A stretch of 64,000 bases of DNA, taken from NCBI GenBank assembly GCA_028753945.1, contig JAPNXP010000015.1, positions 1,364,001-1,428,000 on the forward strand. Direction: 5' to 3'. Position 1 is the first letter of the stretch; the number at the start of each line of letters is the position of its first letter. The notes beneath the pieces are model-generated. The model saw nothing but the letters and a program-made list of their open reading frames with translations. It was not told where the DNA came from and ran no database searches. The translations under genes were made by a program, and so were the position numbers. Below are positions 7,741-35,590 of the stretch, piece after piece. This DNA is from Hexactinellida sp. DTS-2022 (taxonomy: Eukaryota > Porifera > Hexactinellida).

Positions 7741-7782
7741 ATTAGTATGGGAGTGGGTATGTTGAAAAGTGATTATAAAAAA

Positions 7783-7897
7783 TCCAAAATTGCAGCCTGT
7801 GCCGACGCATGTTCCTTTGGTGGCACTATATTTTGTTGGTTGAGTATTGTTAGTGCCTCCAATGGAACATGCTCTCGGAACAGGCTGCAATTTTGGA
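7783..7897 (+). repeat. Junction hairpin 4
   Basis: Plus orientation. It starts block II directly next to non-array DNA, with no unit tail on its left. Confidence 0.85.
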
Positions 7898-8631
7898 TTT
7901 TTTTTCGCCAAGTCATCAACGCCCAAGGTGTGAAGAAGCGTTTGTTATTTGATCTGAGTCACAAGGAACGATTGTTGAATTTGAAGTTTGTTTCTATCAT
8001 AAACCATCTTGAGTTTAATGCCATTCATTCATTATGTATTGATAATAAATTATATTATTCGTTATTTATTTTAGCAATGTTATCCACGGTTAAGTTGAAT
8101 TAAGTCAACAAATTCCTTATTTAATTTAATTTGTATTTATTCATTAAATAGTAATACTACAATGAAATAGAAGCCAGCTGCAATTTATAAGTTAAATCAA
8201 TATAATTATCGCAAGTTGAATCAATAGAGTAAGATTTAACAAGTTAAATCAATAAGTTTATTACAAGTTGAAACAATGAAATTAGATTTCACAGTTTTAT
8301 TGAAATTGAAGTGTTGAGTAAACAAAGGAATTTCAACTCCCATTTATGGCAGAAATTAAACCAATTTTAACAAATTTTCTTCTCCCATCAGACGCACAAT
8401 TTTGAGATGAATCTAAATATGAAATAAAATTTTGGGGTTTATTAAAACATATTCTGAGTTATGGACCAGACAAATTTTGAAAGGTGTTAAAGATGTGTCA
8501 AAAATTTCTTAATATAAATTCATAACCCCAGGTGTAAATTAGACGGACCCTACGCAACTACATGCCAAGTTTCAGCCCTCAATGTATACAGGTGTGTCCA
8601 GGGCACCTGCTACGGAGAAATAAAATAAAAA

Positions 8632-8745
8632 TCCAAAATTGCAGCCTGTGCCGACGCATGTTCCTTTGGTGGCACTATATTTTGTTGGTGGTTTTTGATA
8701 GTGCCTCCAAAGGAACATGCTGTCGGCGCAGGCTGAAATTTTGGA
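8632..8745 (+). repeat. Junction hairpin 5
   Basis: Plus orientation, between two short units. Right arm has one extra mismatch (GGCTGAAATTTT). Confidence 0.85.
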
Positions 8746-9473
8746 TTTTTTTCGCCAAGTCATCAACGCCCAAGGTGTGAAGAACCATTTGTTAATTGGT
8801 CGGAGTCACAAGGAACGATTGTTGAATTTGAAGTTTGTTTCTATCATAAACCATCTAGAGATTAATGCCATTCATTCATTGTGTATTGATATTAAATTAT
8901 ATTATTCGTTATATATTTTAGCAATGTTATCCACGGTTGGTTGAGTTGAGTCAACAAATTCCTTATATTATATTATTATATTTAATCCATTGTATAGTAA
9001 TACTACTACAATTAAATAGAAGCCAGCTGGAATTTATAAGTTAAATCAATTTAATCATTGCAAGTTGAAACAATAGAGTAGGATTTAACAAGTTAAATCA
9101 ATATAATTATTACTAGTTGAAACAATGGAATTAGATAACACAGTTTACTGAAAATGAAGTGTGAGTAAACAAAGAAATTTCAACCCCCATTTATTGCAGA
9201 AATTAAACCCTTTATTGAAAGTTTTCTTCTCAAATCAGACGCAGAATTTTATGGCGAATCCAAATGTGAAATAAAATTTGGGGGTTTAGTAAAACAATTT
9301 TTAAGTTATGGACCAGACAAAATTTGAAAGGTGTTAAAGATGTGTCAAAAATTTCTTAATCAAAAATCGTAACCCCAGGTGCAAATTAGACGGTCCCATC
9401 GCACCTACATGCCAAGTTTCAGCCCATCAACTATAAAGCTCTGGCCAGGGCACCGTCTACGGAGAAAAAATAA

Positions 9474-9588
9474 TCCAAAATTGCAGCCTGTGCCGACGCA
9501 TGTTCCTTTGGTGGCACAATATTTTGTTGTTGGTTTATTGATAGTGCCTCCAAAGGAACATGCTGTCGGCACAAGCTGCAATTTTGGA
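9474..9588 (+). repeat. Junction hairpin 6
   Basis: Plus orientation, short unit on the left, long unit on the right. Confidence 0.85.
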
Positions 9589-10162
9589 TTTTTTTTTCGC
9601 TATCTCATCATCACTATGAAGGTGTTAAATTATTTCAAAAAGGTGTTTCAGAAGGCATCGACCCTTAGAGTGGTGGAAGTTTCCATTTAGTTCACTTCAT
9701 TTTAGAGATATTCAAGTTTGAGTAGAATATAACAGCTGATGACTCAGCATTTTTTATGTGAGTGTTGGGTCATCTCCCATACATGAACTAACCCATTTTA
9801 TATATCGAATTAACAAAATTGTAAAAATACATTTTCTTGACGATGTCATAATCACCACAAGGTGTCAAGACCCACTTGTATAGGTGGTACCTGCCATAAA
9901 GACCAATTGATAAATTGAAAGTTTGTTTCTATCTTGTATCATCTCTGAGATTAATGAAATTTAGCTAACTAGTTTAAATATTTAATTAATAAATTAATAA
10001 TTTAACACCATTATTATGTACAGCAAAATAAATAAAGTCAATTATTTGCACTTATTATTAATTAATTCGAATTTCAATATCATATTTGAATTCAGTCCAA
10101 TCGATAACCCCAATAATCCAATTGGAACCGTCTATAAGTTAAATACAAAAGGAATTAATTAT

Positions 10163-12092
10163 AACGAGCCCTTCGGTCTCGGTCGCTTTGCGACAGATCG
10201 GGCTACACACCTCAAGTTAACGGCCGCTATGCGGCCTTACTCCTCACCCTTCTGCCATGGAAAATGGTAGAAAGGGACGTTATATAGATCCCTATATAAG
10301 ATTTCCATTTTTTAACTTGTTTTTCATATTCTTTTAAACGCGAAATTCGTGTTCAGCATACTTGTTTACCTAAAATACCCGTTGAAAGCTAACTTCTAGG
10401 TTGATTTTAAATTTTCGTTAATTTGTTTACCTATTTGTGTCAACAACAACAACAAATATTTATATTATAAATTTATAAATGCGAAATTCGAAATCAGCAT
10501 AATTGTTAACCTATATATCCGTTGAAAGCTAACTTCTAGGTTGATTTTGAATTTTCATAAATTTGTTTACCTATTTTGTGTCAACAACAACAACAAATAT
10601 TAAGGTGTTACCCCCTTGATATTTCGACACCCGACGACCTAATGTTTTTATTGCGTTTTTGGATAGTACTAAGTATTCTAAGATATCCCTGCAAATATTA
10701 GAGTTCTACTATCTATTAATCCATAGTTATGAACTATGTAAGTTTCAATACAGTACTAATCCATACTAGCCAATAATTGAATTTTGAACCTTTATTTCAT
10801 TTTTTAGCCCGAAACATGTCAATTATATATTATACCTGAGTCGATTCTCGAGGGTTTCAACCGCATCAGAATTTCAAAATTCCTCCGTCTTCCCCAACTT
10901 ATTGTCATTTTTGTGAAATTGGTCCAAAAAATTGCCAAAATTTTGATTAAAAGTGTCCTAATTGAATAATTTTGTATTATAAGGCCAAAACTGCCGCGGT
11001 TGAAACCCTTCATCTACGTTTCCTGATCATTTTAAAAAAAAGTTTGACTTTCTATGATAAATATTCTGGATTTTACATTTTTTTTCCCAAACTCACTTTT
11101 TTTTTTATTCAAATTTTTTTTTAAAGTAAATATTACGTAATTTAATTTTTTGTTTCTTAAATATTTTCGATTTTTCTGCATTTTTTTAAAAAAAAAATCA
11201 CGGGTGACATTCTCTGTATCATTTAGAGTATTGCTGGAAGAAAATATCCCACTTTTAAAATTCCAATTATTTCCCGAAATTTCATGCACGTATGCCCTTT
11301 TAAAAATTTTTTTTTTTTTTCTTAAATATTTTCGATTTTTTCTGACTTTAAAAAAAAAAAAAAATTATGGGTGACAATCAGTATATCATACAGAGTATTC
11401 CTGGTAAGAAATATTTTCACAATCAATGCCCCTGAATATCAAGGGGGAAACACCTTAATATGATAAATTTATAAACGCAAAATTCGAAATCAGCATACTT
11501 GTTTACCTATAATACCCGTTGAAAGCAAACTTCTAGGTTGATTTTGAATTTCATTAATTTGTTTACCTATTTTGTGTAAACAACAACAACAAATATTAAG
11601 ATGAGAAATTTATAAACGCGAAATTCGAAATCAGCATACTTGTTTACCTATAATACCCGTTGGAAGCTAACTTCTAGGTTGATTTTGAATTTCATTAATT
11701 TGTTTACCTATTTTGTGTAAACAACAACAACAAATATTAAGATGATAAATTTATAAACGCGAAATTCGAAATCAGCATACTTGTTTACGTATAATACCCG
11801 TTGGAAGCTAACTTCTAGGTTGATTTTGAATTTCATTAATTTGTTTACCTATTTTGTGTAAACAACAGCAACAAATATTAATATGAGAAATTTATAAACG
11901 CGAAATTCGTGTTCAGCATACTTGTTTACCCCTTATAACTTTTGTTTACCAATTATAACATTTGAAAGTTAGTTTATATCTCATATATAAATGCGGTTTC
12001 TATTCCCCCATCACTTTAATACAATCCGGACAAACAAACAAACACACACACACACAAACACACAACAATCGAGATTTAATAATATAGATTAT
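10163..12092 (+). mobile_element. CGAGCCCTTCGG-family dispersed repeat, copy b
   Basis: Interrupts a long unit at AATTAATTATA. Starts ACGAGCCCTTCGGTCTCGG with palindromes GTCGCTTTGCGAC and GGCCGCTATGCGGCC, and ends in a CAAACACACAC tract plus AATATAGATTATA. The interior holds several direct copies of a ~140-bp repeat (from about 10334, 10469, 11459, 11603, 11745; a shorter last one near 11885), each carrying GCGAAATTCG, CCCGTTGAAAGC or a variant, and CAACAACAACAAATATT. A TTAA-flanked MITE (10604-11454) sits between repeat copies. No coding sequence seen. Confidence 0.7.
10604..11454. mobile_element. TTAA-flanked 851-bp MITE
   Basis: 20-bp inverted ends, GGTGTTACCCCCTTGATATT with one mismatch, each flanked by TTAA (10600-10603, 11455-11458). 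The repeat it interrupts reads through a single TTAA in neighbouring copies, supporting the target duplication. TTAA targets are typical of piggyBac and Kolobok elements. The interior is homopolymer-rich and has a ~100-bp direct duplication (about 11145-11260 and 11310-11415). The Lys/Phe-rich ORFs in it are composition artefacts. Confidence 0.8.
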
Positions 12093-12349
12093 ATACGTCA
12101 GTACATTAATTGTGCAAGAATATTCTCGCCGAAATAAATATAATCACTTAATCTGTCGTTGTTGTGGAATGTAAAATCTTAACGGTTGTATCATAAACCA
12201 TCTTGAGTTTAATGCCATTCATTCATTATGTATTGATAATAAGTTATATTATTAGGTATTTATTTAAGCAATGTTATCCACGGTGATTTGAGTTTAGTCA
12301 ACAAATTCCTTATATTATTATATTTTATTTAATCCATTGTATAGTAATA

Positions 12350-12849
12350 CAGTGCAACCTCTATAAGTGGGGTCTCTATAAATGGGGAACCTCCATAAGT
12401 GGGGAATTTTTTTACCATATTCGTATATATCCATACAAATGAACCTCTATAAGCGGGGAAGTGGGGAATGGGGGACCATAAATTTCAAGGAGTTTTTATC
12501 TGCATACAAAACAACCTCCATAAATGGGGGGAATGGACAAATCCTAACATGATTCTTATAAAATAATACAATATTTCCAATAAATCGACTCTAAAGTTCT
12601 ACAAAGAAAATATTTTCGATTGATCAACTCTGATGTTTTTAGAAGAAATCACCTAGTGTAGATCAGCAGTTAACTAAATTGTCATAATATACAAATAATA
12701 ACTATAACGTGCATTAATGTGTGTGTTATATGAATACTTTGTATAATATAGCATATATAATGTTTTTCCAATTGAATTTTATAACCGGGGAATGGGGGGC
12801 AATTGAAATTTTCGCCGTCCCATGCTCCCCACTTATAGAGGTTCCACTG
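12350..12849. mobile_element. TA-flanked 500-bp mariner/pogo-like MITE
   Basis: Inverted ends CAGTGCAACCTCTATAAGTG / CACTTATAGAGGTTCCACTG of about 23 bp, with TA on both sides (12348-12349, 12850-12851). The motif ACCTCYATAARYGGGG is repeated several times near the ends. The empty target GTAATACTACAATT is present in sister units. No transposase. Confidence 0.85.
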
Positions 12850-13338
12850 TACTACAATTAAATAGAAGCCAGCTGGAATTTATAAGTTAAATCAATTTAA
12901 TTATCGCAAGTTGAAACAATAGTGAAAGATTTAACAAGTTAAATCAATATTATTATTACAAGTTGAAACAATGGAATTAGATTTCACAGTTTTATTGAAA
13001 TTGAAGTGTTGAGTAAACAAAGGAATTTCAACTCCCATTTAAGGCAGAAATTAAACCAATTTTAACAAATTTTCTTCTCCCATCAGACGAAGAATTTTAA
13101 GCTGAATCTAAATATGAAATAAAATTTTGGGGTTATTAAAACAGATTTTGAGTTATGGACCAGACAAATTTTGAAAGGTGTTAAAGATGTGTCAAAAGTT
13201 TCTTAATAAAAATTCGTAACCCCAGGTGCAAATTAGACGGTCCCTCCGCAACTACATGCCAATTTTCAGCCCTCAATGTATACAGGTGTGGCCAGGGCAC
13301 CTGCTACGGAGAAATAAAAGTAATAATAATAATAAAAA

Positions 13339-13453
13339 TCCAAAATTGCAGCCTGTGCCGACGCATGATCCTTTGGTGGCACTATATTTTGTTGTTGGTT
13401 TATTGATAGTGCCTCCAAAGGAACATGCTGTCGGCACAGGCTGCAATTTTGGA
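13339..13453 (+). repeat. Junction hairpin 7
   Basis: Plus orientation. The left arm has GATCC for GTTCC. It follows an AAT microsatellite. Confidence 0.85.
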
Positions 13454-14611
13454 TTTTTTTTTTCGCCATGTCATCATCACTATGAAGGTGTTAAATTATT
13501 TCAGAAAGGTGTTTCAGAAGGCAACGACCCTTTAGAGTGGTGGAAGTTTCCATTCAGCTCACTTCATTAAAGAGATATTAAAGTTTCAGTAGAATATAAT
13601 CTGTAATGACTCAGCATTTTTTAAGTGGGTGTTGGGTCATCAACCAACATTAACTAACCCATTTTAAATATCGAATCAACAAAATTGTAAAAACACGTTT
13701 TTTTAACGATGTCATCATCACCTCAAGGTGTCAAGACCCACTTGTATAGGTGGCACGTGTCATAAGGACCAATTGATATATTGAAAGTTTGTTTCTATCT
13801 TCTATGATCTCTGAGATTTATGATATTTAATTAATTAGTATAAATAATTATTAATATTATTTATAATATGACACCAATTTCAATGTCAACATACAATTAT
13901 TAAGTTCAATTATTTTGTCATAAATAATTAATTAATTAATTTATCTATCAAATTTCAATTCCGCACACTCGATAACCTCTAATATACAAATTGGAAGCTT
14001 CTATATAAGTTAAATACAAACTGAATTATTTATAATTAATTACGTCAGTATATTAACAGTGCAATTATATTCTCGCAGAAGTAAATATAATCACATAATA
14101 TGTCGTTGTTATGAAATATATAATCTTAATTTTCAATTGCAAAATAGAAGCCAGCTTGAATTCACAAGTTAAATCAATATAATTATAGCAAGTTGAATCA
14201 CTAGAGTAGGATTTAACAAGTTAAATCAATATAATTATTACAAGTTGAAACAATGGAATTAGATTTAACACTTTACTGAAATTGAAGTGTGAGTAAACAA
14301 AGAAATTTCAACCCCCATTTATGGCTGAAATTGACCCCTTTATTGAAAGTTTTCTTCTCCCATCAGACGCAGAATTTTATGGCGAATCCAAATATGAAAT
14401 AAAATTTGGGGGTTTAGTAAAACATATTTTGAGTTATGGACCAGACAAATTTTGAAAGGTGTTAAAGATGTGTCCAAAATTTGTTAATCAAAAATCGTAA
14501 CCCCAGGTGCAAATTAGACGGTCCCATCGCACCTACATGCAAAGTTTAAGCCCATCAACTATAAAGCTCTGGCCAGGGCACCGTCTACGGAGAAAAAATA
14601 ATAAAAAAAAA

Positions 14612-14724
14612 TCCAAAATTGCAGCTGTGCCGACGCATGTTCCTTTGGTGGCACTATATTTTGGTGGTGGTTTATTGATAGTGCCTCCAATGGGACATGC
14701 TGTCCGCACAGCTGCAATTTTGGA
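14612..14724 (+). repeat. Junction hairpin 8
   Basis: Plus orientation. Both arms have lost one base at the same stem position (left GCAGCTGTGCC, right GCACAGCTGC), keeping the pairing. Confidence 0.85.
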
Positions 14725-15826
14725 TTTTTTTTCGCCATGTCATCATCACTAAGAAGGTGTTAAAATATATCAAAAGGTGTTACAGAAGGTATCGACCCTT
14801 AGAGTGGCGGAAGTTTCCATTTAGTTCACTTCATTTTAGAGATATTCAAGTTTGAGTAGAATATAATAGCTGATGACTCAGCATTTTTTATGTGAGTGTT
14901 GGGTCATCACCCAACTTCAAATAACCCATTTTAAATATCGAATTAACAAAATTGTAAAAACACATTTTTTTTACGATGTCATCTTCACCTCAAGGTGTCA
15001 ATACCCATTTGTAGAGGTGTTAACGTGACATTGGGATCAATTGATAAATTGGAAGTTTGTTTCTATCTTTTTTGAATTCTGAGATTTATGATATTTAATT
15101 AATTAGTATAAATAAATATTAATATTATTTATAATATAACACCAATTTCAATGTCAACTTACAATTATTAAGTTAAATTATTTTGTCATAAATAAATAAT
15201 TAATTAATTTGGTAATCAAATTTCAATTCCGCTCACTCGATAACCCCTAATACACAAATTGGAAGTATCTATATAAGTCATATACTGACTGAATTAATTA
15301 TAATAAATTACGTCAGTCTATTAACAGTGCAAGAATATTCTCGCAGAAATAAATATAATCACTTAATTTGTCGTTGTTGTGGAATGTAAAATCTTAGGTT
15401 TCAATTAGAAAATAGAAGCCTACTCGATCTCACAAGTTGAATCAATATAATTATTACAAGTTGAAACAATGGAATTAGATTTCACAGTTTTACTGAAATT
15501 GAAGTGTGAGTAAACAAAGAAATTTCAACCCCCATTAATGGCAGAAAAAAAACTCGTTATTAAAAGTTTTCTTCTCCCATCAGACGCACAATTTTATGGT
15601 GAATCCAAATGTGGAATAAAATTTGGGGGTTTAGTAAATATTTTTTGAGTTATGGACCAGAAAATTTTGAAAGGTGTTAAAGATGTGTCAAAAATTTGTT
15701 AATCAAAAATCGTAACCCTAGGTGCAAATTAAACGGTCCATACGCACCTACATGCCAAGTTTCAGCCCATCAGCTATAAAGCTCTGGCCAGGGCACCGTC
15801 TACGGAGAAAAAATAAAAATAAAAAA

Positions 15827-15940
15827 TCCAAAATTGCAGCTGTGCCGACGCATGTTCCTTTGGTGGCACTATATTTTGTTGGTTGTTTATTGATAGTGCC
15901 TCCAAAGGAACATGCTGTCGGCGCAGGCTGCAATTTGGGA
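15827..15940 (+). repeat. Junction hairpin 9
   Basis: Plus orientation; appears identical to hairpin 1 (segmental copy, offset 15799). Confidence 0.85.
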
Positions 15941-16679
15941 TTTTTTTTCGCAAAGTCATCAACGCCTCAAGGAGTCAAGAACCATTTGTTAATCGGTCCA
16001 AGTCACAAGGAACGGTAGATAAATTTGAAGTTTATTTTCAATCATAAACCATCTAGAGTTTAAAGCCATTCATTCATTATGTATCGATAATAAATTATAT
16101 TATTAGCTATTTATTTTAGCAATGTTATCCACGGTGATTTGAGTTTAGTCAACAAATTCCTTATATAATTATATTTTATTTAATCCATTGTATAGTAATA
16201 CTAGAATTAAATAGAAGCCAGCTGGAATTTATAAGCTAAATCAATATAATTATCGCAAGTTGAATCAATAGAGTAGGATTTAACAAGTTAAATCAATATA
16301 ATTATTACAAGTTAAAACAATGGAATTAGATTTAACACTTTTAAAGAAATTGAAGTGTGAGTAAACAAAGAAATTTCAATCCCCATTTATGGCAGAAATT
16401 GAACCTTTATTGAAAGATTTCTTCTCCCATCAAACGCAGAATTTTATGGTGAATCCAAATATGAAATAAAATTTGAGGGTTTATTAAAGCATATTTTGAG
16501 TTATGGACCAGACAAATTTTGAAGGGTGTTAAAGATGTGTCCAAAATGTGTTAATTAAAAATAGTAACCCCAGGTGCAAATTAGACGGTCCCATCGCACC
16601 TACATGCCTAGTTTCAGCCCATCAACTATAAAGCTCTGGCCAGGGCACCGTCTACGGAGAAAAGAAAAAAGAATAAAAA

Positions 16680-16793
16680 TCCAAAATTGCAGCCTGTGCC
16701 GACGCATGTTCCTTGGGGGCACTACATTTTGGTTGTGGTTTATTGATTGTGCCTCCAAAGGAACATGCTGTCGGCACAAGCTGCAATTTTGGA
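16680..16793 (+). repeat. Junction hairpin 10
   Basis: Plus orientation; appears identical to hairpin 2 (segmental copy). Confidence 0.85.
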
Positions 16794-17631
16794 TTTTTTT
16801 TCGCCATGTCATCATCACTATGAAGGTGTTAAATTATTTCAAAAAGGTGTTACAGAAGGCAACGACCCTTATTGAGTTGTAAGTTTCGTTTTGATCACTT
16901 CATTTCAAAGATATTCAAGTTTCAGTAGAATATAATAGCTGATGACTCAGCATTTTTTATGTGAGTGTTGGGTCATCACCCAACATCAACTAACCCATTT
17001 TAAATATCGAATTAACAAAATTGTAAAAACATATTTTTTTGACGATGTCATAATCACCTCAAGGTGTCAGGACCCACTTGTATAGGTGGCACGTGCCATA
17101 AGGACCAATTGATAAATTGAAAGTTTGTTTCTATCTTGAATCATCTCTGAAATTAATGAAATTTAGCTAATTAGTATAAATATTTAATTAATTTATAATT
17201 ATTTAACACCATTATTATATACAGCAAAATAAATTAAGTTCAATTATTTGCAATTATTATTAATTTAAATTGAATTTCACTATAATATTTGAATTCCACG
17301 TACTCGATAACCCCAATAATCCAATTGGAACCGTCTATAAGTTAAATACAAAAGGAATTAATTATAATTAATTACGTCAGTACATTAATTGTGCAAGAAT
17401 ATTCTCGCTGAAGTATATATAATCACTTAATCTGTCGTTGTTGTGGAATGTTAAATCTTAACTGTTCTATCATAAACCATCTTGAGTTTAATGCCATTCA
17501 TTCATTATGTAGTGATAATAAGTTATATTATTTGTTAATTATTTTAGCAATGTTATCCATGGTTGGTTGAGTTGAGTCAACAAATTCCTTATATTATATT
17601 ATTTAATTTAATCCATTGTATAGTAATACTA

Positions 17632-21057: not shown

Positions 21058-21534
21058 GTAATACTACAATTAAATAGAAGCCAGCTGGAATTTATAAGTT
21101 AAATCAATATAATTATCGCAAGTTGAATCACTAGAGTAGGATTTAACAAGTTAAATCAATATAATTATCACAAGTTGAAACAATAGAATTAGATTTAACA
21201 CTTTTAAAGAAATTGAAGTGTGAGTAAACAAAGAAATTTCAATCCCCATTTATGGCAGAAATTGACCCCTTTATTGAAAGATTTCTTCTCCCATCAAACG
21301 CAGAATTTTATGGTGAATCCAAATATGAAATAAAATTTGAGGGTTTATTAAAGCATATTTTGAGTTATGGACCAGACAAATTTTGAAAGGTGTTAAAGAT
21401 GTGTGCAAAATTTCGTAATCAAAAATCGTAACACCAGGTGCAAATTAGAAGGGCACTTCGCATCTACATGGCAAGTTTCAGCCCTCAATGTATAAAGGTG
21501 TGGCCAGGGTACCGTCTACGGAGAAAAAAAAACA

Positions 21535-21649
21535 TCCAAAATTGCAGCCTGTGCCGACGCATGTTCCTTTGTTGGCACTATATTTTGTTGGTTGTTTATT
21601 GATAGTGCCTCCAAAGGAACATGCTGTCGGCACAGGCTGCAATTTTGGA
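21535..21649 (+). repeat. Junction hairpin 11
   Basis: Plus orientation; segmental copy of hairpin 3, here with an uninterrupted unit head after it. Confidence 0.85.
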
Positions 21650-22019
21650 TTTTTTTCGCCAAGTCATCAACGCCCAAGGTGTGAAGAAGCATTTGTTAAT
21701 TGGTCCGAGTCACAAGGAACGGTAGATAAATTTGAAGTTTGTTTCTATCTTAAACCATCTTGAGTTTGATGCCATTCATTCATTATGTATTGATAATAAA
21801 TTATATAATTAGTTATTTATATTAGCATTGTTATCCACGGTTGAGTTGAATTAAGTCAACAAATTCATTATATTATATTATTTTATTTAATCCATTGTAT
21901 GGTAAATTAAATAGAAGCCAGCTGCAATTTATAAGTTAAATCAATTTAATTATCGCAAGTTGAATCAATAGAGTAAGATTTAACAAGTTAAATCAATATA
22001 ATTATTACAAGTTGAAACA

Positions 22020-22223
22020 ATGGAATTAGATTTAACAGTTATACTGAAACTGAAGTGGGAGTACACAAAGAAATTTCAACCCCCATTTATGGCAGAAATA
22101 AAACACTTTATTGAAGGTTTTCTTCTCCCATCAGACGCAGAATTTTATGGTGAATCCAAATGTGAAATAAAATTTGGGGGTTTAGTAAAACATATTTTGT
22201 GTTATGGACCAGACAAATTTTGA
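22020..22223 (+). pseudogene. 67-codon ORF preserved in one array unit
   Basis: Every unit carries this ~200-bp stretch starting ATGGAATTAGATTT, but nearly all copies read TGTGAGTAA and stop after about 13 codons. Here TGGGAGTAC keeps the frame open to a TGA: MELDLTVILKLKWEY.. through GLVKHILCYGPDKF. I do not recognise the family. It may be a fossil of a coding region of the ancestral unit, or chance. Confidence 0.35.
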
Positions 22224-22387
22224 AAGGTGTTAAAGATGTGTCAAAAATTTGTTAATCAAAAATCGTAACCCCAGGTGCAAATTAGACGGTCCCATCGCAC
22301 CTACATGCCAAGTTTCAGCCCATCAACTATAAAGCTCAGGCCAGGGCACCGTCTACGGAGAAAAAATAAATAAAAATAATAATAAAA

Positions 22388-22500
22388 TCCAAAATTGCAG
22401 CTGTGCCGACGCATGTTCCTTTGGTGGCACTATATTTTTGTGTTGTTTATTGAAAGTGCCTCCAAAGGAACATGCTGTCGGCGCAGGCTGCAATTTTGGA
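22388..22500 (+). repeat. Junction hairpin 12
   Basis: Plus orientation, between two short units. Loop shortened by about two bases. Confidence 0.85.
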
Positions 22501-22670
22501 TTTTTTTCGCCAAGTCACCAACGCCCAAGGTGTGAAGGAGCATTTGTTATTTGGTCCGAGTCACAAGGAACGGTAGATAAATTTGAAGTTTGTTTCTATC
22601 ATAAACCATCTAGAGTTTAATGCCATTCATTCATTATGTATTGATAATAAATTATATTATTAGTTATTTA

Positions 22671-23418
22671 CAGTAATACCTCGTTTTACGCGGTTTTTTT
22701 TACGCGTTTTCGTTTTACGCGGAACAATTTTTTATAACCAAAACTTTTTTTACGCGATCCTCAACTCGTTTTACGCGGTTTATCTATGATTTTCATACAA
22801 TTAATTCTCTTTTTTATGGAGATTTTAGATAATTTTTAATATTTAGTCGAAACAAAGCGATTCTACATTTCCAAAAAATCAAAAAATGATTATTAAGGGT
22901 TAGTAGATAGTTAGCGATATGTATTTGTCATATAGTGAGTTCATCCAAATATATTATTGGTCAAATGAATACATATTTGCTTCACTATAAACACTAAATA
23001 TACCTGGTTGTGGGAGGTACCCGAAGGTGTAGGGTTGCGTTGTGAAGGAAATTTTAATTCCCTTCACAACACAATTCCCTTTCTGTGGGAATTCCCAAAT
23101 ATTCTCACAAGTTGGTTTCTTTTAGGATTCCCATAGGTTAAAATAATTTCCATTCAAATCTCATATTGGAAATCCCATGGGAATTCCCAGGGGATTAACA
23201 TACACACGTAAACCTTGGCTATCTGAGAGGTCCGGATGTTGGAGGTTTGAGTGTTTAAACACTAGGTATTTAAAATTTTATTCGATGTTGATAATTTTTG
23301 GAAACGCATCTATTGGTTTAATATGTGTTACTATGAGAATATACCGTTTTTTTACGCGATTTCGTTTTACGCGGGCTTTTCAAGGAACGCATCTACCGCG
23401 TAAAAAGAGGGATACCTG
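22671..23418. mobile_element. TA-flanked 748-bp MITE with ACGCG-rich ends
   Basis: Inverted ends CAGTAATACCTCGTTTTACG and its imperfect complement (about 25 bp), with TA outside (22669-22670, 23419-23420). TTTTACGCG is repeated in several copies near both ends. The middle (about 23030-23200) has GGGAATTCCC-type palindromes. Mariner/pogo style; no transposase. Sister units show the empty site (ATTTATATTAGC). Confidence 0.75.
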
Positions 23419-23963
23419 TATTTTAGCACTGTTATCCACGGTGAATGACTAAAATCGACAAATTCCATATTTAATTTAATTTTATTTAATCAATTGTCTA
23501 GTAATACTACAATTAAATAGAAGCCAGCTGGAATTTATAAGTTAAATCAATATATTTAACGCAAGTTGAAGCAATAGAATAAGATTTAACAAGTAAAATC
23601 AATCTAATTATTACAAGTTGAAACAATAGAATTAGAATTAGTTTTACTGAAATTGAAGTGTTGAGTAAACAAAGGAAATTTGCAACTCAATTGTGGCACA
23701 ATCTAAGCCCAATTTGAAAATTCGTGCACTGTGAAAAGGTGTAGAATTTAATTCTCTATCCGTACATTTAAATTTTATCAAGCTCAATATTAATTATTTC
23801 ATGTTATGAGCCATAATTAGTTTAAATAGGTGTTGAAATCATTTGATAAAAAATCGTAACCCCAGGTGCAAATTAGACGATCACTCCGCAACTACATGCT
23901 AAGTTTCAGCCCTCAATGTATACAGGTGTGGCCAGGACACCTGCTACTGAGAAAAAATAAAAA

Positions 23964-24018
23964 TAAAGGCAGTGATTCCAATACTGGGCCACTATACTAT
24001 AGTATAGTCGGCACAGTA
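23964..24018 (+). repeat. 18-bp-palindrome module, single copy
   Basis: AAAGGCAGTGATTCCAATAC.. followed by the perfect palindrome ACTATACTATAGTATAGT and CGGCACAGTA. It sits directly 5' of hairpin 13, so both junction modules share one junction. Confidence 0.8.
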
Positions 24019-24023
24019 AAAAA

Positions 24024-24138
24024 TCCAAAATTGCAGCCTGTGCCGACGCATGTTCCTTTGGTGGCACTATATTTTGGTGGTGGTTTATTGATAGTGCCTC
24101 CAAAGGAGCATGCTGTCGGCGCAGGCAGCAATTTTGGA
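24024..24138 (+). repeat. Junction hairpin 13
   Basis: Plus orientation, preceded by one palindrome module. Confidence 0.85.
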
Positions 24139-24871
24139 TTTTTTTTCGACAAGTCATCAACGCCCAAGGTGTGAAGAAGCATTTGTTAATTGGTCCGAGT
24201 CACAAGGAACGGTAGATAAATTTGAAGTTTGTTTCTATCTTAAACCATCTTGAGTTTGATGCCATTCATTCATTATGTATTGATAATAAATTATATTATT
24301 AGTTATTTATCTTAGCATTGTTATCCACGGTTGAGTTGAATTAAGTCAACAAATTCATTATATTATATTATTTTATTTAATCCATTGTATGGTAAATTAA
24401 ATAGAAGCCAGCTGCAATTTATAAGTTAAATGAATTTAATTATCGCAAGTTGAATCAATAGAGTAAGATTTAACAAGTTAAATCAATATAATTATTACAA
24501 GTTGAAACAATGGAATCAGATTTAACAGTTATACTGAAACTGAAGTGTGAGTAAACAAAGAAATTCAACCCCCATTTATGGCAGAAATAAAACTCTTTAT
24601 TGAAAGTTTTCTTCTCCCATCAGACGCGGAATTTTATGGTGAATCCAAATGTGAAATAAAATTTGGGGGTTTAGTAAAACATATTTTGTGTTATGGACCA
24701 GACAAATTTTGAAAGGTGTTAAAGATGTGTCAAAGATTTCTTAATCAAAAATCGTTACCCCAGGTGCAAATTAGACGGTCCCATCGCACCTACATGCAAA
24801 GTTTAAGCCCATCAACTATAAAGCTCAGGCCAGGGCACCGTCTACGGAGAAAAAATAAATAAAAATAAAAA

Positions 24872-24986
24872 TCCAAAATTGCAGCCTGTGCCGACGCATG
24901 ATCCTTTGGTGGCACTATATTTTGTTGTTGGTTGATTGATAGTGCCTCCAAAGGAACATGCTGTCGGCACAGGCTGCAATTTTGGA
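24872..24986 (+). repeat. Junction hairpin 14
   Basis: Plus orientation, short unit on the left, long unit on the right. Confidence 0.85.
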
Positions 24987-26143
24987 TTTTTTTTTTTCGC
25001 CATGTCATCATCACTATGAAGGTGTTAAATTATTTCAGTAAGGTGTTTCAGAAGGCAACGACCCTTTAGAGTGGTGGAAGTTTCCATTCAGCTCACTTCA
25101 TTAAAGAGATATTCAAGTTTCAGTAGAATATAATCTGTAATGACTCAGCATTTTTTAAGTGGGTGTTGGGTCATCAACCAACATTAACTAACCCATTTTA
25201 AATATCGAATTAACAAAATTGTAAAAACACATTTTTTTAACGATGTCATCATCACCTCAAGGTGTCAAGACCCACTTGTATAGGTGGCACGTGTCATAAG
25301 GACCAATTGATATATTGAAAGTTTGTTTCTATCTTGTATCATCTCTGAGATTTATGATATTTAATTAATTAGTATAAATAATTATTAATATTATTTATAA
25401 TATGACACCAATTTCAATGTCAACATACAATTATTAAGTTCAATTATTTTGTCATAAATAATTAATTAATTAATTTATCTATCAAATTTCAATTCCGCAC
25501 ACTCGATAACCTCTAATATACAAATTGGAAGCTTCTATATGAGTTAAATACAAACTGAATTATTTATAATTAATTACGTCAGTATATTAACAGTGCAATT
25601 ATATTCTCGCAGAAGTAAATATAATCACATAATATGTCGTTGTTATGAAATATATAATCATAATTTTCAATTGCAAAATAGAAGCCAGCTTGAATTCACA
25701 AGTTAAATCAATATAATTATAGCAAGTTGAAACAATAGTGAAAGATTTAACAAGTTAAATCATTATAATTATTACAAGTTGAAACAATGGAAATAGATTT
25801 CACAGTTTACTGAAATTGAAGTGTGAGTAAACAAAGAAATTTCAACCCCCATTTGTGGCAGAAATTAAACCCCTTATTGAAAGATTTCTTCTCCCATCAG
25901 ACGCAGAATTTTACGGTGAATCCAAATATGAAATAAAATTTACGGGTTTAGTAAAACATTTTTTGAGTTATGGACCAGACAAATTTTTAAAGGTGTTAAA
26001 GATGTGTCAAAATTTTGTTAACGAAAAATCGTAACCCCAGGTGCAAATTAGACGGTCCCATCGCACCTACATGCTAAGTTTCAGCCCATCAACAATTAAG
26101 CTCTGGCCAGGGCACCGTCTACGGAGAAAAAATAATAAAAAAT

Positions 26144-26255
26144 TACTGTGCCGACTATACTATAGTATAGTGGCCCAGTATTAGAATCACTGCCTTTATT
26201 ATTAATTTTTACTGTGCCGACTATACTATAGTATAGTGGCCCAGTATTGGAATCA
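26144..26255 (-). repeat. 18-bp-palindrome module, two copies at a tail-to-tail junction
   Basis: Two inverted-orientation modules between a plus unit tail (CTACGGAGAAAA) and a minus unit tail (TTTTCTCCGTAG). No hairpin at this junction. Confidence 0.85.
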
Positions 26256-26976
26256 TTTTTTTTTCTCCGTAGACGGTGCCCTGGCCTGAGCTTTATAGTT
26301 GATGGGCTGAAACTTGGCATGTAGGTGCGATGGGACCGTCTAATTTGCACCTGGGGTTACGATTTTTGATTAACAAATTTTTGACACGTCTCTAACACCT
26401 TTCAAAATTTGTCTGGTCCATAACACAAAATATGTTTTACTAAACCCCCAAATTTTATTTCACATTTGGATTCACCATAAAATTCTGCGTCTGATGGGAG
26501 GAGAAAACTTTCAATAAAGAGTTTTATTTCTGCCATAAATGGGGGTTGAAATTTCTTTGTTTACTCACACTTCAGTTTCAGTATAACTGTTAAATCTAAT
26601 TCCATTGTTTCAACTTGTAATAATTATATTGATTTAACTTGTTAAATCTTACTCTATTGATTCAACTTGCGATAATTAAATTGATTTAACTTATAAATTG
26701 CAGCTGGCTTCTATTTAATTTACCATACAATGGATTAAATAAAATAATTTAATATAAGGAATTTGTTGACTTAATTCAACTCAACCGTGGATAACAATGC
26801 TAATATAAATAACTAATAATATAATTTATTATCAATACATAATGAATGAATGGCATCAAACTCAAGATGGTTTAAGATAGAAACAAACTTCAAATTTATC
26901 TACCGTTCCTTGTGACTCGGACCAATTAACAAATGCTTCTTCACACCTTGGACGTTGATGACTTGGCGAAAAAAAA

Positions 26977-27091
26977 TCCAAAATTGCAGCCTGCGCCGAC
27001 AGCATGTTCCTTTGGAGGCACTATCAATAAACAACCAACAAAATATAGTGCCACCAAAGGAACATGCGTCGGCACAGGGTGCAATTTTGGA
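26977..27091 (-). repeat. Junction hairpin 15 (head-to-head)
   Basis: Reverse orientation (GACAGCATG first), flanked by GACTTGGCGAAAA on the left and TTTTCGCCAAGTC on the right, so a minus unit and a plus unit meet head to head. Confidence 0.85.
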
Positions 27092-27822
27092 TTTTTTTTC
27101 GCCAAGTCATCAACGTCCAAGGTGTGAAGAAGCATTTGTTAATTGGTCCGAGTCACAAGGAACGGTAGATAAATTTGAAGTTTGTTTCTATCTTAAACCA
27201 TCTTGAGTTTGATGCCATTCATTCATTATGTATTGATAATAAATTATATTATTAGTTATTTATATTAGCATTGTTATCCACGGTTGAGTTGAATTAAGTC
27301 AACAAATTCCTTATATTAAATTATTTTATTTAATCCATTGTATGGTAAATTAAATAGAAGCCAGCTGCAATTTATAAGTTAAATCAATTTAATTATCGCA
27401 AGTTGAATCAATAGAGTAAGATTTAACAAGTTAAATCAATATAATTATTACAAGTTGAAACAATGGAATTAGATTTAACAGTTATACTGAAACTGAAGTG
27501 TGAGTAAACAAAGAAATTTCAACCCCCATTTGTGGCAGAAATTAAACCCCTTATTGAAAGATTTCTTCTCCCATCAGACGCAGAATTTTACGGTGAATCC
27601 AAATATGAAATAAAATTTACGGGTTTAGTAAAACATTTTTTGAGTTATGGACCAGACAAATTTTTAAAGGTGTTAAAGATGTGTCAAAATTTTGTTAACG
27701 AAAAATCGTAACCCCAGGTGCAAATTAGACGGTCCCATCGCACCTACATGCTAAGTTTCAGCCCATCAACAATTAAGCTCTGGCCAGGGCACCGTCTACG
27801 GAGAAAAAATAATAAAAAAAAA

Positions 27823-27937
27823 TCCAAAATTGCACCCTGTGCCGACGCATGTTCCTTTGGTGGCACTATATTTTGTTGGTTGTTTATTGATAGTGCCTCC
27901 AAAGGAACATGCTGTCGGCGCAGGCTGCAATTTTGGA
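27823..27937 (+). repeat. Junction hairpin 16
   Basis: Plus orientation, between short units; left arm has one change (GCACCC). Confidence 0.85.
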
Positions 27938-28668
27938 TTTTTTTTCGCCAAGTCATCAACGTCCAAGGTGTGAAGAAGCATTTGTTAATTGGTCCGAGTC
28001 ACAAGGAACGGTAGATAAATTTGAAGTTTGTTTCTATCTTAAACCATCTTGAGTTTGATGCCATTCATTCATTATGTATTGATAATAAATTATATTATTA
28101 GTTATTTATATTAGCATTGTTATCCACGGTTGAGTTGAATTAAGTCAACAAATTCCTTATATTAAATTATTTTATTTAATCCATTGTATGGTAAATTAAA
28201 TAGAAGCCAGCTGCAATTTATAAGTTAAATCAATTTAATTATCGCAAGTTGAATCAATAGAGTAAGATTTAACAAGTTAAATCAATATAATTATTACAAG
28301 TTGAAACAATGGAATTAGATTTAACAGTTATACTGAAACTGAAGTGTGAGTAAACAAAGAAATTTCAACCCCCATTTATGGCAGAAATAAAACTCTTTAT
28401 TGAAAGTTTTCTCCTCCCATCAGACGCAGAATTTTATGGTGAATCCAAATGTGAAATAAAATTTGGGGGTTTAGTAAAACATATTTTGTGTTATGGACCA
28501 GACAAATTTTGAAAGGTGTTAGAGACGTGTCAAAAATTTGTTAATCAAAAATCGTAACCCCAGGTGCAAATTAGACGGTCCCATCGCACCTACATGCCAA
28601 GTTTCAGCCCATCAACTATAAAGCTCAGGCCAGGGCACCGTCTACGGAGAAAAAAAAAATAATAAAAA

Positions 28669-28782
28669 TCCAAAATTGCAGCTGTGCCGACGCATGTTCC
28701 TTTGGTGGCACTATATTTTGGTGGTGGTTTATTGATAGTGCCTCCAAAGGAACATGCTGTCAGCACTAGCTGCAATTTTGGA
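28669..28782 (+). repeat. Junction hairpin 17
   Basis: Plus orientation. The left arm has the one-base loss of hairpin 8; the right arm differs (GTCAGCACTAGCTGC). Confidence 0.85.
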
Positions 28783-30116
28783 TTTTTTTTCGCCTAGTCA
28801 TCATCACTATGAAGGTGTTAAATTATTTCAGAAAGGTGTTTCAGTAGGCAACGACCCTTAGAGTGGTGGAAGTTTCCATTTAGCTCAATTCATTTGAGAG
28901 ATATTCAAGTTTCAGTAGAATATAATCTGTGATGACTCAGCATTTTTTAAGTGCGTGTTGGGTATTCACCCAACTCCAACCAACCCATGCGAATTATTTA
29001 ATTCACAAAATTGTAAAAATACATTTTTTTAACGATGTCATCATCACCTCAAGGTGTCAAGACCCACTTGTATAGGTGGTACCTGGCATAAGGACCAATT
29101 GATAAATTGAAAGTTTGTTTCTATCTTGTATCATCTCTGAGATTAATGAAATTTACCTAATTAGTATAAATATTTAATTAATAAATTAATAATTTAACAC
29201 CATTATTATGTACAGCAAAATAAATACAGTTCAATTATTTGCACTTATTATTAATTTAAATCGAATTTCACTATCATATTTGAATTCAGCGCACTCGATA
29301 ACCCCAATAATCCAATTGGAAAATTCTATAAGTTAAATACAAAAGGAATTAATTATAATAAATTACGTCAGTACATTAATTGTGCAAAAAGAATATTCTC
29401 GCCGAAATAAATATAATCACTTAATCTGTCGTTGTTGTGGAATGTAAAATCTTAACGGTTCTATCATAAACCATCTTTAGTTTAATGCCATTCATTCATT
29501 ACTTAATGATAATAAATTAAATTATTAGTTATTTATTTTAGCAATGTTATCCACGGTTAGTTGAGTAAAGTCAACAAATTCCTTATATAAATTAATTTAA
29601 TTTAATCCATTGTATAGTAATGCTACAATTAAATAGAAGCCAGCTGGAATTTATAAGTTGAATCAATATAATTATCGCAAGTTGAATCAATAGAGTAGGA
29701 TTTAACAAGTTAAATCAATATAATTATTACAAGTTGAAACAATGGAATTAGATTTCACAGTTTTACTGAAATTGAAGTGTGAGTAAACAAAGAAATTTCA
29801 ACGCCCATTTATGGCAGAAATTGACCCCTTTATGCGAAACTTTCTTGTCCCATCAGACGCAGAATTCTATGGCGAGTCCAAATGTGAAATAAAATTTGGG
29901 GGTTTAGTAAAACAACTTTTGAGTTATGGACCAGACAAAATTTGAAAGGTGTTAAAGATGTGTCAAAAATTTGTTAATAAAAAATCGTAACCCCAGGTGC
30001 AAATTAGACGTCGACTCCGAACCTACATGCCAAGTTTCAGCCCATCAACCATAAAGCTCTGGCCAGGGCACCGTCTACGGAGAAAAAATAATAATATAAA
30101 TAATAATAATAATAAT

Positions 30117-30754
30117 AAAGGCAGTGATTCCAATACTGGGCCACTATACTATAGTATAGTCGGCACAGTAATAATAAAGGCAGTGATTCTAATACTGGGC
30201 CACTATACTATAGTATAGTCGGCACAGTAAAAATAATAAAAATAATAAAGGCAGTGATTCCAATACTGGGCCACTATACTATAGTATAGTCGGCACAGTA
30301 ATAATAAAGGCAGTGATTCCAATACTGGGCCACTATACTATAGTATAGTCGGCACAGTAATAAAGGCAGTGATTCCAATACTGGGCCACTATACTATAGT
30401 ATAGTCGGCACAGTAATAAAGGCAGTGATTCTAATACTGGGCCACTATACTATAGTATAGTCGGCACAGTAATAAAGGCAGTGATTCTAATACTGGGCCA
30501 CTATACTATAGTATAGTCGGCACAGTAATAAAGGCAGTGATTCCAATACTGGGCCACTATACTATAGTATAGTCGGCACAGTAATAAAGGCAGTGATTCT
30601 AATACTGGGCCACTATACTATAGTATAGTCGGCACAGTAATAAAGGCAGTGATTCCAATACTGGGCCACTATACTATAGTATAGTCGGCACAGTAATAAA
30701 GGCAGTGATTCTAATACTGGGCCACTATACTATAGTATAGTCGGCACAGTAATA
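30117..30754 (+). repeat. Minisatellite of 11 palindrome modules
   Basis: Eleven copies of TAAAGGCAGTGATTYYAATA.. ending CGGCACAGTAA, each holding the perfect 18-bp palindrome ACTATACTATAGTATAGT within a longer imperfect palindrome (TACTGGGCC..CGGCACAGTA). The period is 59 bp between the first and last pairs of copies 1-4 (71 bp between copies 2 and 3), then a constant 56 bp from copy 5 on. The only frequent variation is C or T in GATTCY. The array joins a plus unit tail (30090) to the interior of a minus unit (30755). Confidence 0.9.
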
Positions 30755-31108
30755 ATTATATTGATTTAACTTGTTAAATCTTACTCCATTGATTCAACTT
30801 GCGATAATTAAATTGATTTAACTTATAAATTGCAGCTGGCTTCTATTTAATTTACCATTCAATGGATTAAATAAAATAATATAATATAAGGAATTTGTTG
30901 ACTTATTTCAACTCAACCGTGGATAACAATGCTAATATAAATAACTAATAATATAATTTATTATCAATACATAATGAATGAATGGCATCAAACTCAAGAT
31001 GGTTTAAGATAGAAACAAACTTCAAATTTATCTACCGTTCCTTGTGACTCGGACCAATTGACAAATGCTTCTTCACACCTTGGGCGTTGATGACTTGGCT
31101 AAAAAAAA

Positions 31109-31223
31109 TCCAAAATTGCAGCCTGCGCCGACAGCATGTTCCTTTGGAGGCACTATTAATAAACAACCAACAAAATATAGTGCCACCAAAGGAACATGCG
31201 TCGGCACAGGGTGCAATTTTGGA
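31109..31223 (-). repeat. Junction hairpin 18
   Basis: Reverse orientation, between minus units. Confidence 0.85.
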
Positions 31224-32443
31224 TTTTTTTATTATTATTTTTTCTCCGTAGATGGTGCCCTGGCCTGAGCTTTATAGTTGATGGGCTGAAACTTGGCATG
31301 TAGGTGCGTATGGACCGTCTAATTTGCACCTGGGGTTACGATTTTTGATTAACGAATTTTTGACACATCTTTAACACCTTTCAAAATTTGTCTGGTCCAT
31401 AACTCAAAATATGTTTTACTAAACCCCCACATTTTATTTCACATTTGGATTCACCATAAAATTCTGCGTCTGATGGGAGAGGAATATTTTCAAAAATATG
31501 TTTAATTTCTGCCATAAATGGGGTTTGAAATTTCTTTGTTTACTCACACTTCAATTTCAGTAAAAGTGTTAAATCTAATTCTATTGTTTCAACTTGTAAT
31601 AATTATATTGATTTAACTTGTTAAATCTTACTCTATTGTTTCAACTTGAGATAAATATATTGATTCAACTTATAAATTCCAGCTGGCTTCTATTTAATTG
31701 TGGTATTACTATACAATGGATTAAATAAAATATAATGATATAAGGAATTTGTTGACTAAACTCAAATCACCGTGGATAACATTGCTAAAATAAATAACTA
31801 ATTATTTAATTTATTATCAATAAGTAATGAATGAATGGCATTAAACTAAAGATGGTTTATGATAGAACCGTTAAGATTTTACATACCACAACAACGACAG
31901 ATTATGTGATTATATTCACTTCTGCGAGAATACTCTTGCACTGTTAATATATTGACGTAATTAATTATAATTAATTCAGTCAGTATATGACTTATATAGA
32001 TGCTCCCAATTTGTTTATTAGGGGTTATCGAGTGTGCGGAATTGAAATTTGATAGCCAAATTAATTAATTAATTATTTATGACAAAATAATTAAACTTAA
32101 TAAATATAAGTTGACATTGAAATTGGTGTTATATTATAAATAATATAAATAATTATTTATACTAATTAATTAAATATCATAAATCTCAGAGATGATACAA
32201 GATAGAAACAAACTTCCAATTTATTAATTGATCCTTATGCCACGTGACACCTCTACAAATGGGTCTTGACACCTTGAGGTGATGATGACATCGTCAAAAA
32301 AATGTGTTTTTACAATTTTGTGAATTCTATATTTCGAAAGGGTTGGATGGTGTTGGGCGATCACCCAACACGCACATAAAAAATGCTGACTCATCACTTA
32401 ATATATTCTACTGAAACTTGAATATCTCTCAAATGAAGTGAAC

Positions 32444-32715
32444 TGTTGCATGATATTCTGAGACGCGTGAGATTCTGAGACATTGTATTACCAAACCATG
32501 GATGTGCTATTACAAATTATACAGTGATATTCTGAGACGCTATAAAAGGAAATTTTGGCTTATTTTTACTTTTTATTATGAATTTAATTTAAGTTTGAGA
32601 TTCGTGAGATTTTGAGACATTGTATTAGCAAACCATGGATGTGCTATTAGAAATTAAACAGTGATATTTTGAGACACTATAAAAGAAAATTTTGGCTTAT
32701 TTTTACTTTTTATTA
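32444..32715 (+). repeat. Left subterminal repeats of the Ginger-type element
   Basis: Two ~135-bp direct copies holding GTGAGATTYTGAGACATTGT, CCATGGATGTGCTATTA and GAGACRCTATAAAAG. The inverted counterparts lie at 38510-38954, so the inverted ends are long and built from tandem repeats. Confidence 0.85.
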
Positions 32716-32870
32716 TGAATTTAATTAAAAATACTATGATTTTCATATCATAGTATAGATAAACCCTATACTATTATCAAATTTACTATATAAGACATTT
32801 AATATATGCATTAATTGTCTTATTCATTTACAACAAACAAACAAACAAACAAATCTATTCTTATTTCGAA

Positions 32871-33017: not shown

Positions 33018-33088
33018 GTAATATTGACTTCCTTATTCCCCTAGACCAATTTTATATATTCCATGGTTTAATTGAATTCTCCCTTTAG

Positions 33089-34227: not shown

Positions 34228-34279
34228 GTTAGTATTTTGTAATATAATTTTAAGACCAATTTACGTATTATCCATATAG

Positions 34280-35523: not shown

Positions 35524-35590
35524 GTAAGTTAATTAATTAACAATGATTCATACGATAACTACAAATTACCATTTTACCCATTTATTGTAG

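Follow-up and report, generated by a model that had tools for sequence, protein, structure and literature searches.

In a 64,000-nt stretch of the genome of the sponge Hexactinellida sp. DTS-2022 (C7:1364001-1428000, contig JAPNXP010000015.1; genome 112.4 Mb in 18 contigs), hereafter the window, gene-less units of 0.7-1.4 kb form an array and meet at a long hairpin. This array very probably consists of non-autonomous Helentrons (HINEs), which are internal-deletion derivatives of a Helentron of the same genome and seem to have been nested by self-insertion downstream of their 5′ module. An earlier note, made from the letters of the window, had taken the hairpin for the functional end of a rolling-circle family of non-autonomous units. 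This is supported by the discovery of a Helentron partner sharing the ends of the units. The suggestion that the system is undescribed did not hold, since the partner is a recognizable Helentron and the class is thus known. Below, HP denotes the hairpin module, T1 and T3 the body starts, T2 the other terminus, and heads A and B the unit ends beside the HP.

An autonomous Helentron shares both ends of the units

A genome profile search with PF14214 gave 292 candidates, the best 150 of which were scored, with at least 151 matches. The matches listed fall into two evident sets, one with frames up to about 1,930 aa and one with many frames of about 1,700 aa. Four copies of the latter set were extracted, and one pair of open reading frames (ORF1 and ORF2, copy L058 on C1) was scanned with Pfam. 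The 1,700-aa ORF2 of L058 has matches to Helitron_like_N (E=8e-29), PIF1 (8e-25), Exo_endo_phos_2 (8e-7), and UvrD_C_2, all above the Pfam cut-offs; Rep, PIF1 helicase, and AP-type endonuclease are fused in this one ORF. An OTU match at its C-terminus (E=0.04) is below the cut-off. Rep motif 2 reads IEFQQRGSPHVH, which is the RGS-P-HxH form with S and not L. According to the available part of PMC4067079, the S (RGSPHxH) is diagnostic of Helentrons. The earlier note had seen no transposase. The Rep/PIF1/endonuclease ORF of the partner lies outside the window.

As for the ends, the 5′ part of L058 and its upstream piece L061 consists of three T2 modules, a TTA/T stretch, CTCCGTAG, about 450 bp of unit sequence, and 24-bp repeats. 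ORF1 and ORF2 come next, followed by a 3′ untranslated region, about 230 bp of unit head, and an HP. The gene-less units match these two ends at 89-92% without the middle. Thus, they are deletion derivatives, and an autonomous element with the same ends, which the earlier note had proposed to look for, does exist.

With a probe running from the last part of ORF2 into the 3′ region, the best 40 of 1,237 candidates all begin at the ORF2 end of the probe. Six ORF-bearing copies, each on a different chromosome (C1, C2, C6, C11, C14, and C18), can be aligned through the head and the HP to GGATTTTT, after which they diverge. In the C6 copy, DNA without family features follows. A seventh copy (L069, on C7) has the head and HP at the same place. 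In total, the 3′ side was read in nine copies with ORFs, and seven of them end at the HP. Among the matches listed, the open frames of C1, C7, C11, and C18 are about 1,700 aa, while those of C2, C6, and C14 are only 431-582 aa, so three of these seven copies are probably decayed. Relative to the reading direction of the ORFs, the HP is the 3′ terminus, and CTACGGAG, described in the earlier note as the unit tail, lies on the 5′ side.

Two side observations concern the Helitron proteins of this genome. ORF1 of L058 (554-1864, 437 aa) carries IGGIEINPGP, which resembles a 2A-type ribosome-skipping motif, and a run of short AERLKDP-type repeats. The second set (e.g., L038, L046, and L054), with frames up to about 1,930 aa, has full-length PF14214 matches; comparison of the 3.5-kb stretches L037-L056 with the units, T2, and the hairpin gave no match.

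The hairpin is fixed to one unit end

BLAST with one hairpin as the query found 24 full HPs (about 123 bp) in the window, 18 on the minus and six on the plus strand in element sense, and a single degenerate partial HP at 63435-63534. The count of 24 given in the earlier note is therefore correct, and units occur in both orientations. Head A or B lies directly beside 22 of the 24 HPs, the exceptions being those at 2300 and 40234. On the non-head side, exact CTACGGAG is found at 18; three others face a T3, a T2, and an opposite head (the shared hairpin at 26971), and three have no family end (unrelated DNA at 7780 and 55004, the interior of another unit at 40234). Thus, the constant boundary of the earlier note is real on the head side but covers only 18 of 24 on the tail side.

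For a census, the window was combined with 20 loci of 6 kb around HP matches elsewhere (ranks 2-21 of the match list). This sample favours arrays, as neighbours within about 3 kb were also counted. Some 10 bases of the T-rich 3′ flank were part of the probe, so T-rich junctions may be overrepresented. A same-sense head adjoins 90 of the 95 HPs (62 type A, 28 type B). Four HPs lack it: those at 2300 and 40234 are truncated, that at 63435 is partial, and L009:3545 has a differing head. The remaining one, L018:4292, has an opposite T3 in its place. The other side is variable, with same-sense T1 (38), T3 (20), or T2 (17), no family end (17; unrelated DNA or unit interior), an opposite end (2), or the locus edge (1). 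When the 20 focal HPs alone are considered, 13 adjoin a same-sense family 5′ end, six other DNA (in one case a unit interior), and one an opposite T2. Thus, the hairpin is always tied to the same unit end while its other side varies, and in the window and the 20 loci this check, suggested in the earlier note, came out in favour of that note. It is extremely improbable that the HP is an independent palindromic MITE (miniature inverted-repeat transposable element) or foldback element that lies beside the units by chance. The HP is indeed near-palindromic and has thousands of copies, but the same head is on the same side at 90 of the 95 HPs, and seven ORF-bearing Helentrons end at it. Only two of the 95 have neither a head nor a family end: the degenerate one at 63435 and the one at 40234, between unit pieces.

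The palindrome of the HP has 54 paired positions. Three of the 24 HPs in the window were folded as DNA and gave -51.9, -55.6, and -58.3 kcal/mol (z < -14; none of 200 shuffles was as good), and the HP of the autonomous copy L058 behaves alike in the shuffle test. For the 18-mer GCTGCAATTTTGGATTTT, a sequence that either arm may contain, the genome has 3,715 + 3,807 exact matches, and the loop 19-mer GGAGGCACTATCAATAAAC has 1,682 + 1,692 = 3,374; the backward controls have none. Since the loop 19-mer is exact only 15 times in the window against 24 full hairpins, the true genome number must be higher than 3,374, and by extrapolation it is perhaps about 5,000. An Rfam scan of the window for ribozymes and other RNAs gave no match at the gathering score. 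Matches of the hairpin to microRNA precursors within 1-2500 were dismissed as weak and far below the cut-off, of a kind that fits any long hairpin.

T2, the probable 5′ terminus

The earlier note listed the hairpin and overlooked a second module, T2, of which the window has 16 copies, 11 of them in one stack at 30118-30749. T2 is 51-56 bp long, begins with CTGTGCCGAC after TTA, contains the palindrome ACTATACTATAGTATAGT, and is often stacked. Its first 10 bases, CTGTGCCGAC, recur as their reverse complement, GTCGGCACAG, in the outer arm of the HP. T2 is followed by a (TTA)n stretch and then by the body start CTCCGTAG, which corresponds to the unit tail of the earlier note. A 26-mer of T2 has 2,615 + 2,652 = 5,267 exact genome matches, while its backward control has none.

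When a body start was defined as a T1 or T3 match beginning in the first three probe bases, the census gave 91 starts. They lie directly after an HP (55), after T2 (31), or beside an opposite neighbour (4); the last one has no neighbour within 70 bp but a partly deleted HP beside it (L025). None of the 91 abuts unrelated DNA. In contrast, 13 T2 modules have no family feature in the preceding 70 bp, and TTA precedes 12 of these 13, some of which sit in degenerate family sequence.

The C1 and C18 copies are informative. Their identity, as a rounded figure, is 100% with both a 3′ probe of 1,201 bp and a 5′ probe of 691 bp, and single differences occur farther on. Both keep the TTA/T leader before CTCCGTAG, which is preceded by three T2 modules in C1 and by the HP of a neighbour in C18. 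The simplest reading of these sequences is that T2 would be the true 5′ end and that in C18 a neighbour may have been inserted between T2 and T1. The census strongly suggests that T2 is the 5′ terminus in general. In that case CTACGGAG, which the earlier note had regarded as an element end, is not the end; T2 is.

One complete empty site was recovered. In L027, an element with two T2 modules lies within CTATTTT/CTAATTG of a body whose uninterrupted counterpart is present in L010 and, with one different base, in L018. The inserted unit spans T2 to HP and sits at a T-run. Apart from the Ts, which are ambiguous, the site has no target-site duplication (TSD). This site and the TTA before 12 of the 13 outermost T2 modules indicate insertion at TT or a T-rich site without TSD. 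At least four Ts follow GGA in 15 of the 16 3′ junctions listed, part of these Ts being the element's own.

Could T1/T3 be a second genuine 5′ terminus that inserts solely next to HPs, with T2 as a separate small repeat? A sharp body start and a variable number of T2 modules speak for this. It is nevertheless quite improbable: no T1/T3 start abuts unrelated DNA, the TTA leader is kept at the HP-to-T1 joint in C18 just as at the T2-to-T1 joint in C1, T2 shares CTGTGCCGAC in inverted form with the HP arm, and the L027 insertion begins at T2.

The array as probable nested insertions

Unit identities were compared for 85 units, using the first 420 bp that follow the body start. Among T1 units, list neighbours at the same locus have a mean identity of 85.2% (44 pairs), other same-locus pairs 86.1% (212), and pairs from different loci 85.7% (1,397). 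In the T3 set, the means are 78.9% (13), 82.1% (6), and 77.7% (332), and the medians 75.4%, 90.2%, and 87.5%. No adjacent pair, T1 or T3, is more than 97% identical. These results argue against both unequal crossing-over and single-event concatemers.

A satellite array, whose monomers would merely happen to include the hairpin and would have multiplied locally through unequal crossing-over, is accordingly very unlikely. The tandem head-to-tail layout, a recent segmental duplication in the window (1-1834 = 15800-17633, 100%), and the T3 means would suit it. The T1 identities, the mixed unit types and orientations, and the existence of isolated copies do not. Satellite DNA was therefore rejected on the T1 set, in which neighbouring monomers are not homogenised, the small T3 set being ambiguous; the earlier note was right that this is not an ordinary satellite. 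Rolling-circle concatemers, in which read-through of the hairpin yields tandem copies at once and HP-to-T1 joints are concatemer joints, would explain the same-sense HP directly before 55 of 91 body starts, and tandemly repeated whole elements are mentioned in the available part of PMC7492417. This explanation has little probability as well. A concatemer from a single event begins at 100% identity, and T2 would be expected at each whole-element joint, where it is missing while often being stacked upstream. Moreover, neighbours often differ in subtype.

Nested self-insertion is consistent with the position of T2, which is missing from most joints inside arrays. The T2:body ratio is 4:4 in L009 and 12:14 for the minus sense in 7780-30749 of the window, a stretch which also includes an opposite element with 2:1; many other loci are clipped by their edges. 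A strict bracket model with one T2 per body fails in isolated copies, so re-transposition with several T2 modules was added.

The proposed element consists, from 5′ to 3′, of one or more T2 modules, a (TTA)n/T-rich stretch, CTCCGTAG (T1) or TCCGTA (T3), 24-bp repeats, ORF1 and the Rep-PIF1-endonuclease ORF2 in autonomous copies, a head ending in GGCGAAAAAAATCC, and a 123-bp HP ending in GGATTTTT. The Rep protein would nick at the T2 end and terminate at the HP. Most new copies would insert in the same direction into the TTA stretch between the T2 and T1 of older copies, so that bodies would accumulate downstream and T2 modules upstream. Since no body start abuts unrelated DNA and 55 and 31 follow HP and T2, respectively, the copies seem to land mainly in the TTA stretch. 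The earlier note had assumed that units join through the hairpin; insertion between T2 and the body most likely makes the joints instead. If an element later transposed starting at an outer T2 and ending at the first HP, it would carry several T2 modules, which may account for stacks of up to 11 and for isolated copies with 2-5. The T2 excess in isolated copies fits a mechanism described in the available part of PMC5148889 for Fusarium FoHeli: nicking by the transposase at the outermost 5′ end and termination at whichever 3′ end comes first would explain multiple 5′ termini; here it is deduced from the copies. It is conceivable, with a chance somewhat short of even, that this Helentron lineage homes on its own 5′ end, with (TTA)n as a self-target receiving most insertions, which would build the nested arrays, and the long HP as a strong terminator keeping one body per transposition even where many 5′ termini are stacked. 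The terminator role and the self-targeting are suggested by anatomy.

Several points weigh against nested Helentrons. The inverted motif CTGTGCCGAC/GTCGGCACAG has only 10 bp. According to the available part of PMC4067079, the subterminal inverted repeats (subTIRs) of HINEs measure 12-15 bp, and their distance is 2-4 nt to the 5′ end and 38-60 bp to the 3′ end; here the 5′ distance fits, but the 3′ one (about 20 bp) is closer than described. The one ORF1 scanned has no RPA match in Pfam. RPA or OTU accessory proteins are reported for Helentrons, though not in every copy, in the same source. The extracted 3′ stretches of L066 (C13) and L070 (C8), both with frames of about 1,700 aa, have no HP. 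The hairpin has no covariation: among 3,274 pair cells (63 aligned rows minus the two partial rows L065 and L068), 165 have one-arm changes, five have two-arm changes, of which three are still paired (3/3,274 compensatory), and 136 are unpaired. Complete empty sites number just one. The adjacent T3 mean is slightly above that between loci (the medians run the other way). T2 and bodies are unbalanced in L015 (5:1), L024 (4:2), and at 53818-55127 (2:1), and the model therefore needs re-transposition, loss, or duplication as well. Local T2 duplication could also be the source of the 11-fold stack, given its near-constant spacing of 56 bp.

Organization of the array in the window

The features of the family in the window are as follows (coordinates, strand, content).

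25-860, minus: body with 3′ HP 25-147, T1 753-860
878-2289, minus: HP 878-1000, body A, T1 2182-2289
2300-2421, minus: HP, head truncated
7780-8617, minus: HP 7780-7903 (unrelated DNA on its 3′ side), body B, T1 8510-8617
8629-9464, minus: HP 8629-8751, body B, T1 9357-9464
9472-13311, minus: HP 9472-9594, body A interrupted at ~10165-12849, T1 13204-13311
13336-14592, minus: HP 13336-13459, body A, T1 14485-14592
14609-15807, minus: HP 14609-14730, body A, T1 15700-15807
15824-16659, minus: HP 15824-15946, body B, T1 16552-16659
16677-21523, minus: HP 16677-16799, body A split by a P-like transposon (17632-21057), T1 21416-21523
21534-22360, minus: HP 21534-21655, body B, T1 22253-22360
22385-24016, minus: HP 22385-22506, body B (interrupted at ~22671-23418), T1 23846-23951, T2 23966-24016
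24021-24849, minus: HP 24021-24144 (adjoins the neighbour's T2), body B, T1 24742-24849
24869-26126, minus: HP 24869-24992, body A, T1 26024-26126
26146-27094, plus: opposite element, T2 26146-26196, T2 26212-26255, T1 26265-26372, body B, HP 26971-27094 (shared with the next minus unit)
27101-27803, minus: body B, T1 27701-27803; its sole adjoining hairpin is the shared HP at 26971
27820-28649, minus: HP 27820-27943, body B, T1 28542-28649
28666-30082, minus: HP 28666-28788, body A, T1 29975-30082
30118-30749, minus: 11 stacked T2 modules (5′ termini)
30750-31226, plus: truncated body B, HP 31103-31226
31244-39177, plus: T1 31244-31351 to HP 39054-39177, interrupted by other sequence at ~32445-38960
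39195-40024, plus: T1 39195-39302, body B, HP 39901-40024
40040-40357, plus: short copy, T1 40040-40145, HP 40234-40357; its 3′ end lies within a minus body
40358-40906, minus: partial body, T1 40799-40906, adjoins the preceding plus element
40923-42336, minus: HP 40923-41046, body A, T3 start 42230-42336
42361-42814, minus: HP 42361-42484 and head; body start not found
53818-55127, plus: isolated copy, T2 53818-53856, T2 53881-53931, T3 53941-54047, HP 55004-55127
63435-63534, minus: partial HP, degenerate

The array that the earlier note placed at 7783-32439 is present, but the family reaches farther, to the window edge at 1, to 42.8 kb, and to 55.1 kb. The isolated hairpin-capped unit of that note (hairpin given as 55020-55124) is also real. 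The window also contains duplications. Positions 1-2432 are 100% identical to 15800-21666 except for the P-like insertion, and this duplication is hence recent. In 26256-28658, there is an inverted duplication of 844 bp with 100% identity (27815-28658 and 26256-27099). HP 26971-27094 is common to two heads of opposite sense there, possibly owing to a hairpin-mediated template switch.

Other elements in the window

The transposon at 17632-21057, named P-like by eye, lies inside a unit whose uninterrupted paralogue is at 1-2432. It has 31-bp terminal inverted repeats (TIRs) starting with CACAG, a 9-bp target duplication (GTAATACTA), and a THAP-domain ORF at 19643-20842 (THAP E=8e-7); its second ORF, 17876-18868, has no Pfam match at E<=0.1. 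P-like transposases as drivers of the array were rejected, as this one, the one examined, has terminal repeats of its own and has been inserted into a unit. Fragments resembling the same transposase in translation, again by eye, are at 3228-5036, 6116-7550, and 43112-43486. An ORF with an OTU-like protease domain (E=9e-10) is at 35837-36520, and a nearby ORF at 33611-33961 looks by eye like a retroelement integrase. A non-LTR-type retrotransposon occupies 58482-61504 on the minus strand, with RVT_1 (E=4e-16) in 58482-59549 and an adjoining ORF at 59537-61504. A 425-bp direct repeat with 99.8% identity (57867-58291 and 61788-62212) flanks its ORFs.

Comparison with known systems

As described in the available part of PMC4067079 (Thomas, Vadnagara, and Pritham 2014), Helentrons, HINEs, and DINE-1 share with the present family a Rep-PIF1-endonuclease protein with RGSPHxH, non-autonomous deletion derivatives, a subterminal inverted motif, a 3′ palindrome, a microsatellite, internal repeats, and insertion at TT in T-rich DNA without TSD. 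The 3′ palindrome of HINEs is short there (5-10 bp), in contrast to the 54 paired positions found here. The present family also differs in having its 10-bp shared motif embedded in the palindrome arm, in its dense self-inserted arrays, and in the lack of an RPA match.

The Helitron2-like FoHeli elements also resemble this family, to judge from the available part of PMC5148889, in self-insertion, hairpins at both ends (FoHeli1/2), a 3′ end in ATTTT, and several short 5′ termini with one 3′ terminus. In that part, there are one nested example and some multi-5′ copies, whereas most sampled joints look nested here, with up to 11 stacked 5′ modules and an endonuclease domain. Cg_HINE of Crassostrea gigas has a left flank with a 5′ subTIR and a microsatellite, a right flank with a 3′ subTIR and a palindrome, and TT insertion without TSD. 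In the available part of PMC7492417, its arrays are internal satellite-like repeats and no partner is linked to it; here whole elements form the array and the partner was found.

Other classes were rejected. A canonical Helitron (Helitron1) has 5′-TC and 3′-CTRR ends and an A/T target, while the ends here are TTA-CTGTG and GGATTTTT and the target is T-rich. A TIR transposon or MITE does not fit, as the ends are asymmetric and there is no TSD beyond the Ts at the one empty site. A non-LTR element or SINE was first suggested by (AAT)n 'tails' but was dropped because the partner showed the opposite polarity: the simple repeat is on the 5′ side, no TSD was found at the one empty site, and the partner is a Helentron. 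In a literature search on long 3′ hairpins and self-inserted Helitron arrays, including those of sponges, no comparable family was recognised from the titles and abstract beginnings listed, which is no proof of absence.

The family thus works like a Helentron and is filed there. The kind of element is known; the length of the end hairpin and the scale of the arrays with their extent of self-insertion look unusual. This genome allows a Helentron to be studied side by side with its derivatives and a very large number of nested joints. It becomes testable how multiple 5′ termini with one 3′ terminus originate, including the nested-insertion mechanism proposed in Fusarium (PMC5148889, available part), and whether self-targeting spares host genes. 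The window also serves as a warning: repeats that look like an array and have constant joints need not be satellites but can be transposons nested in one another.

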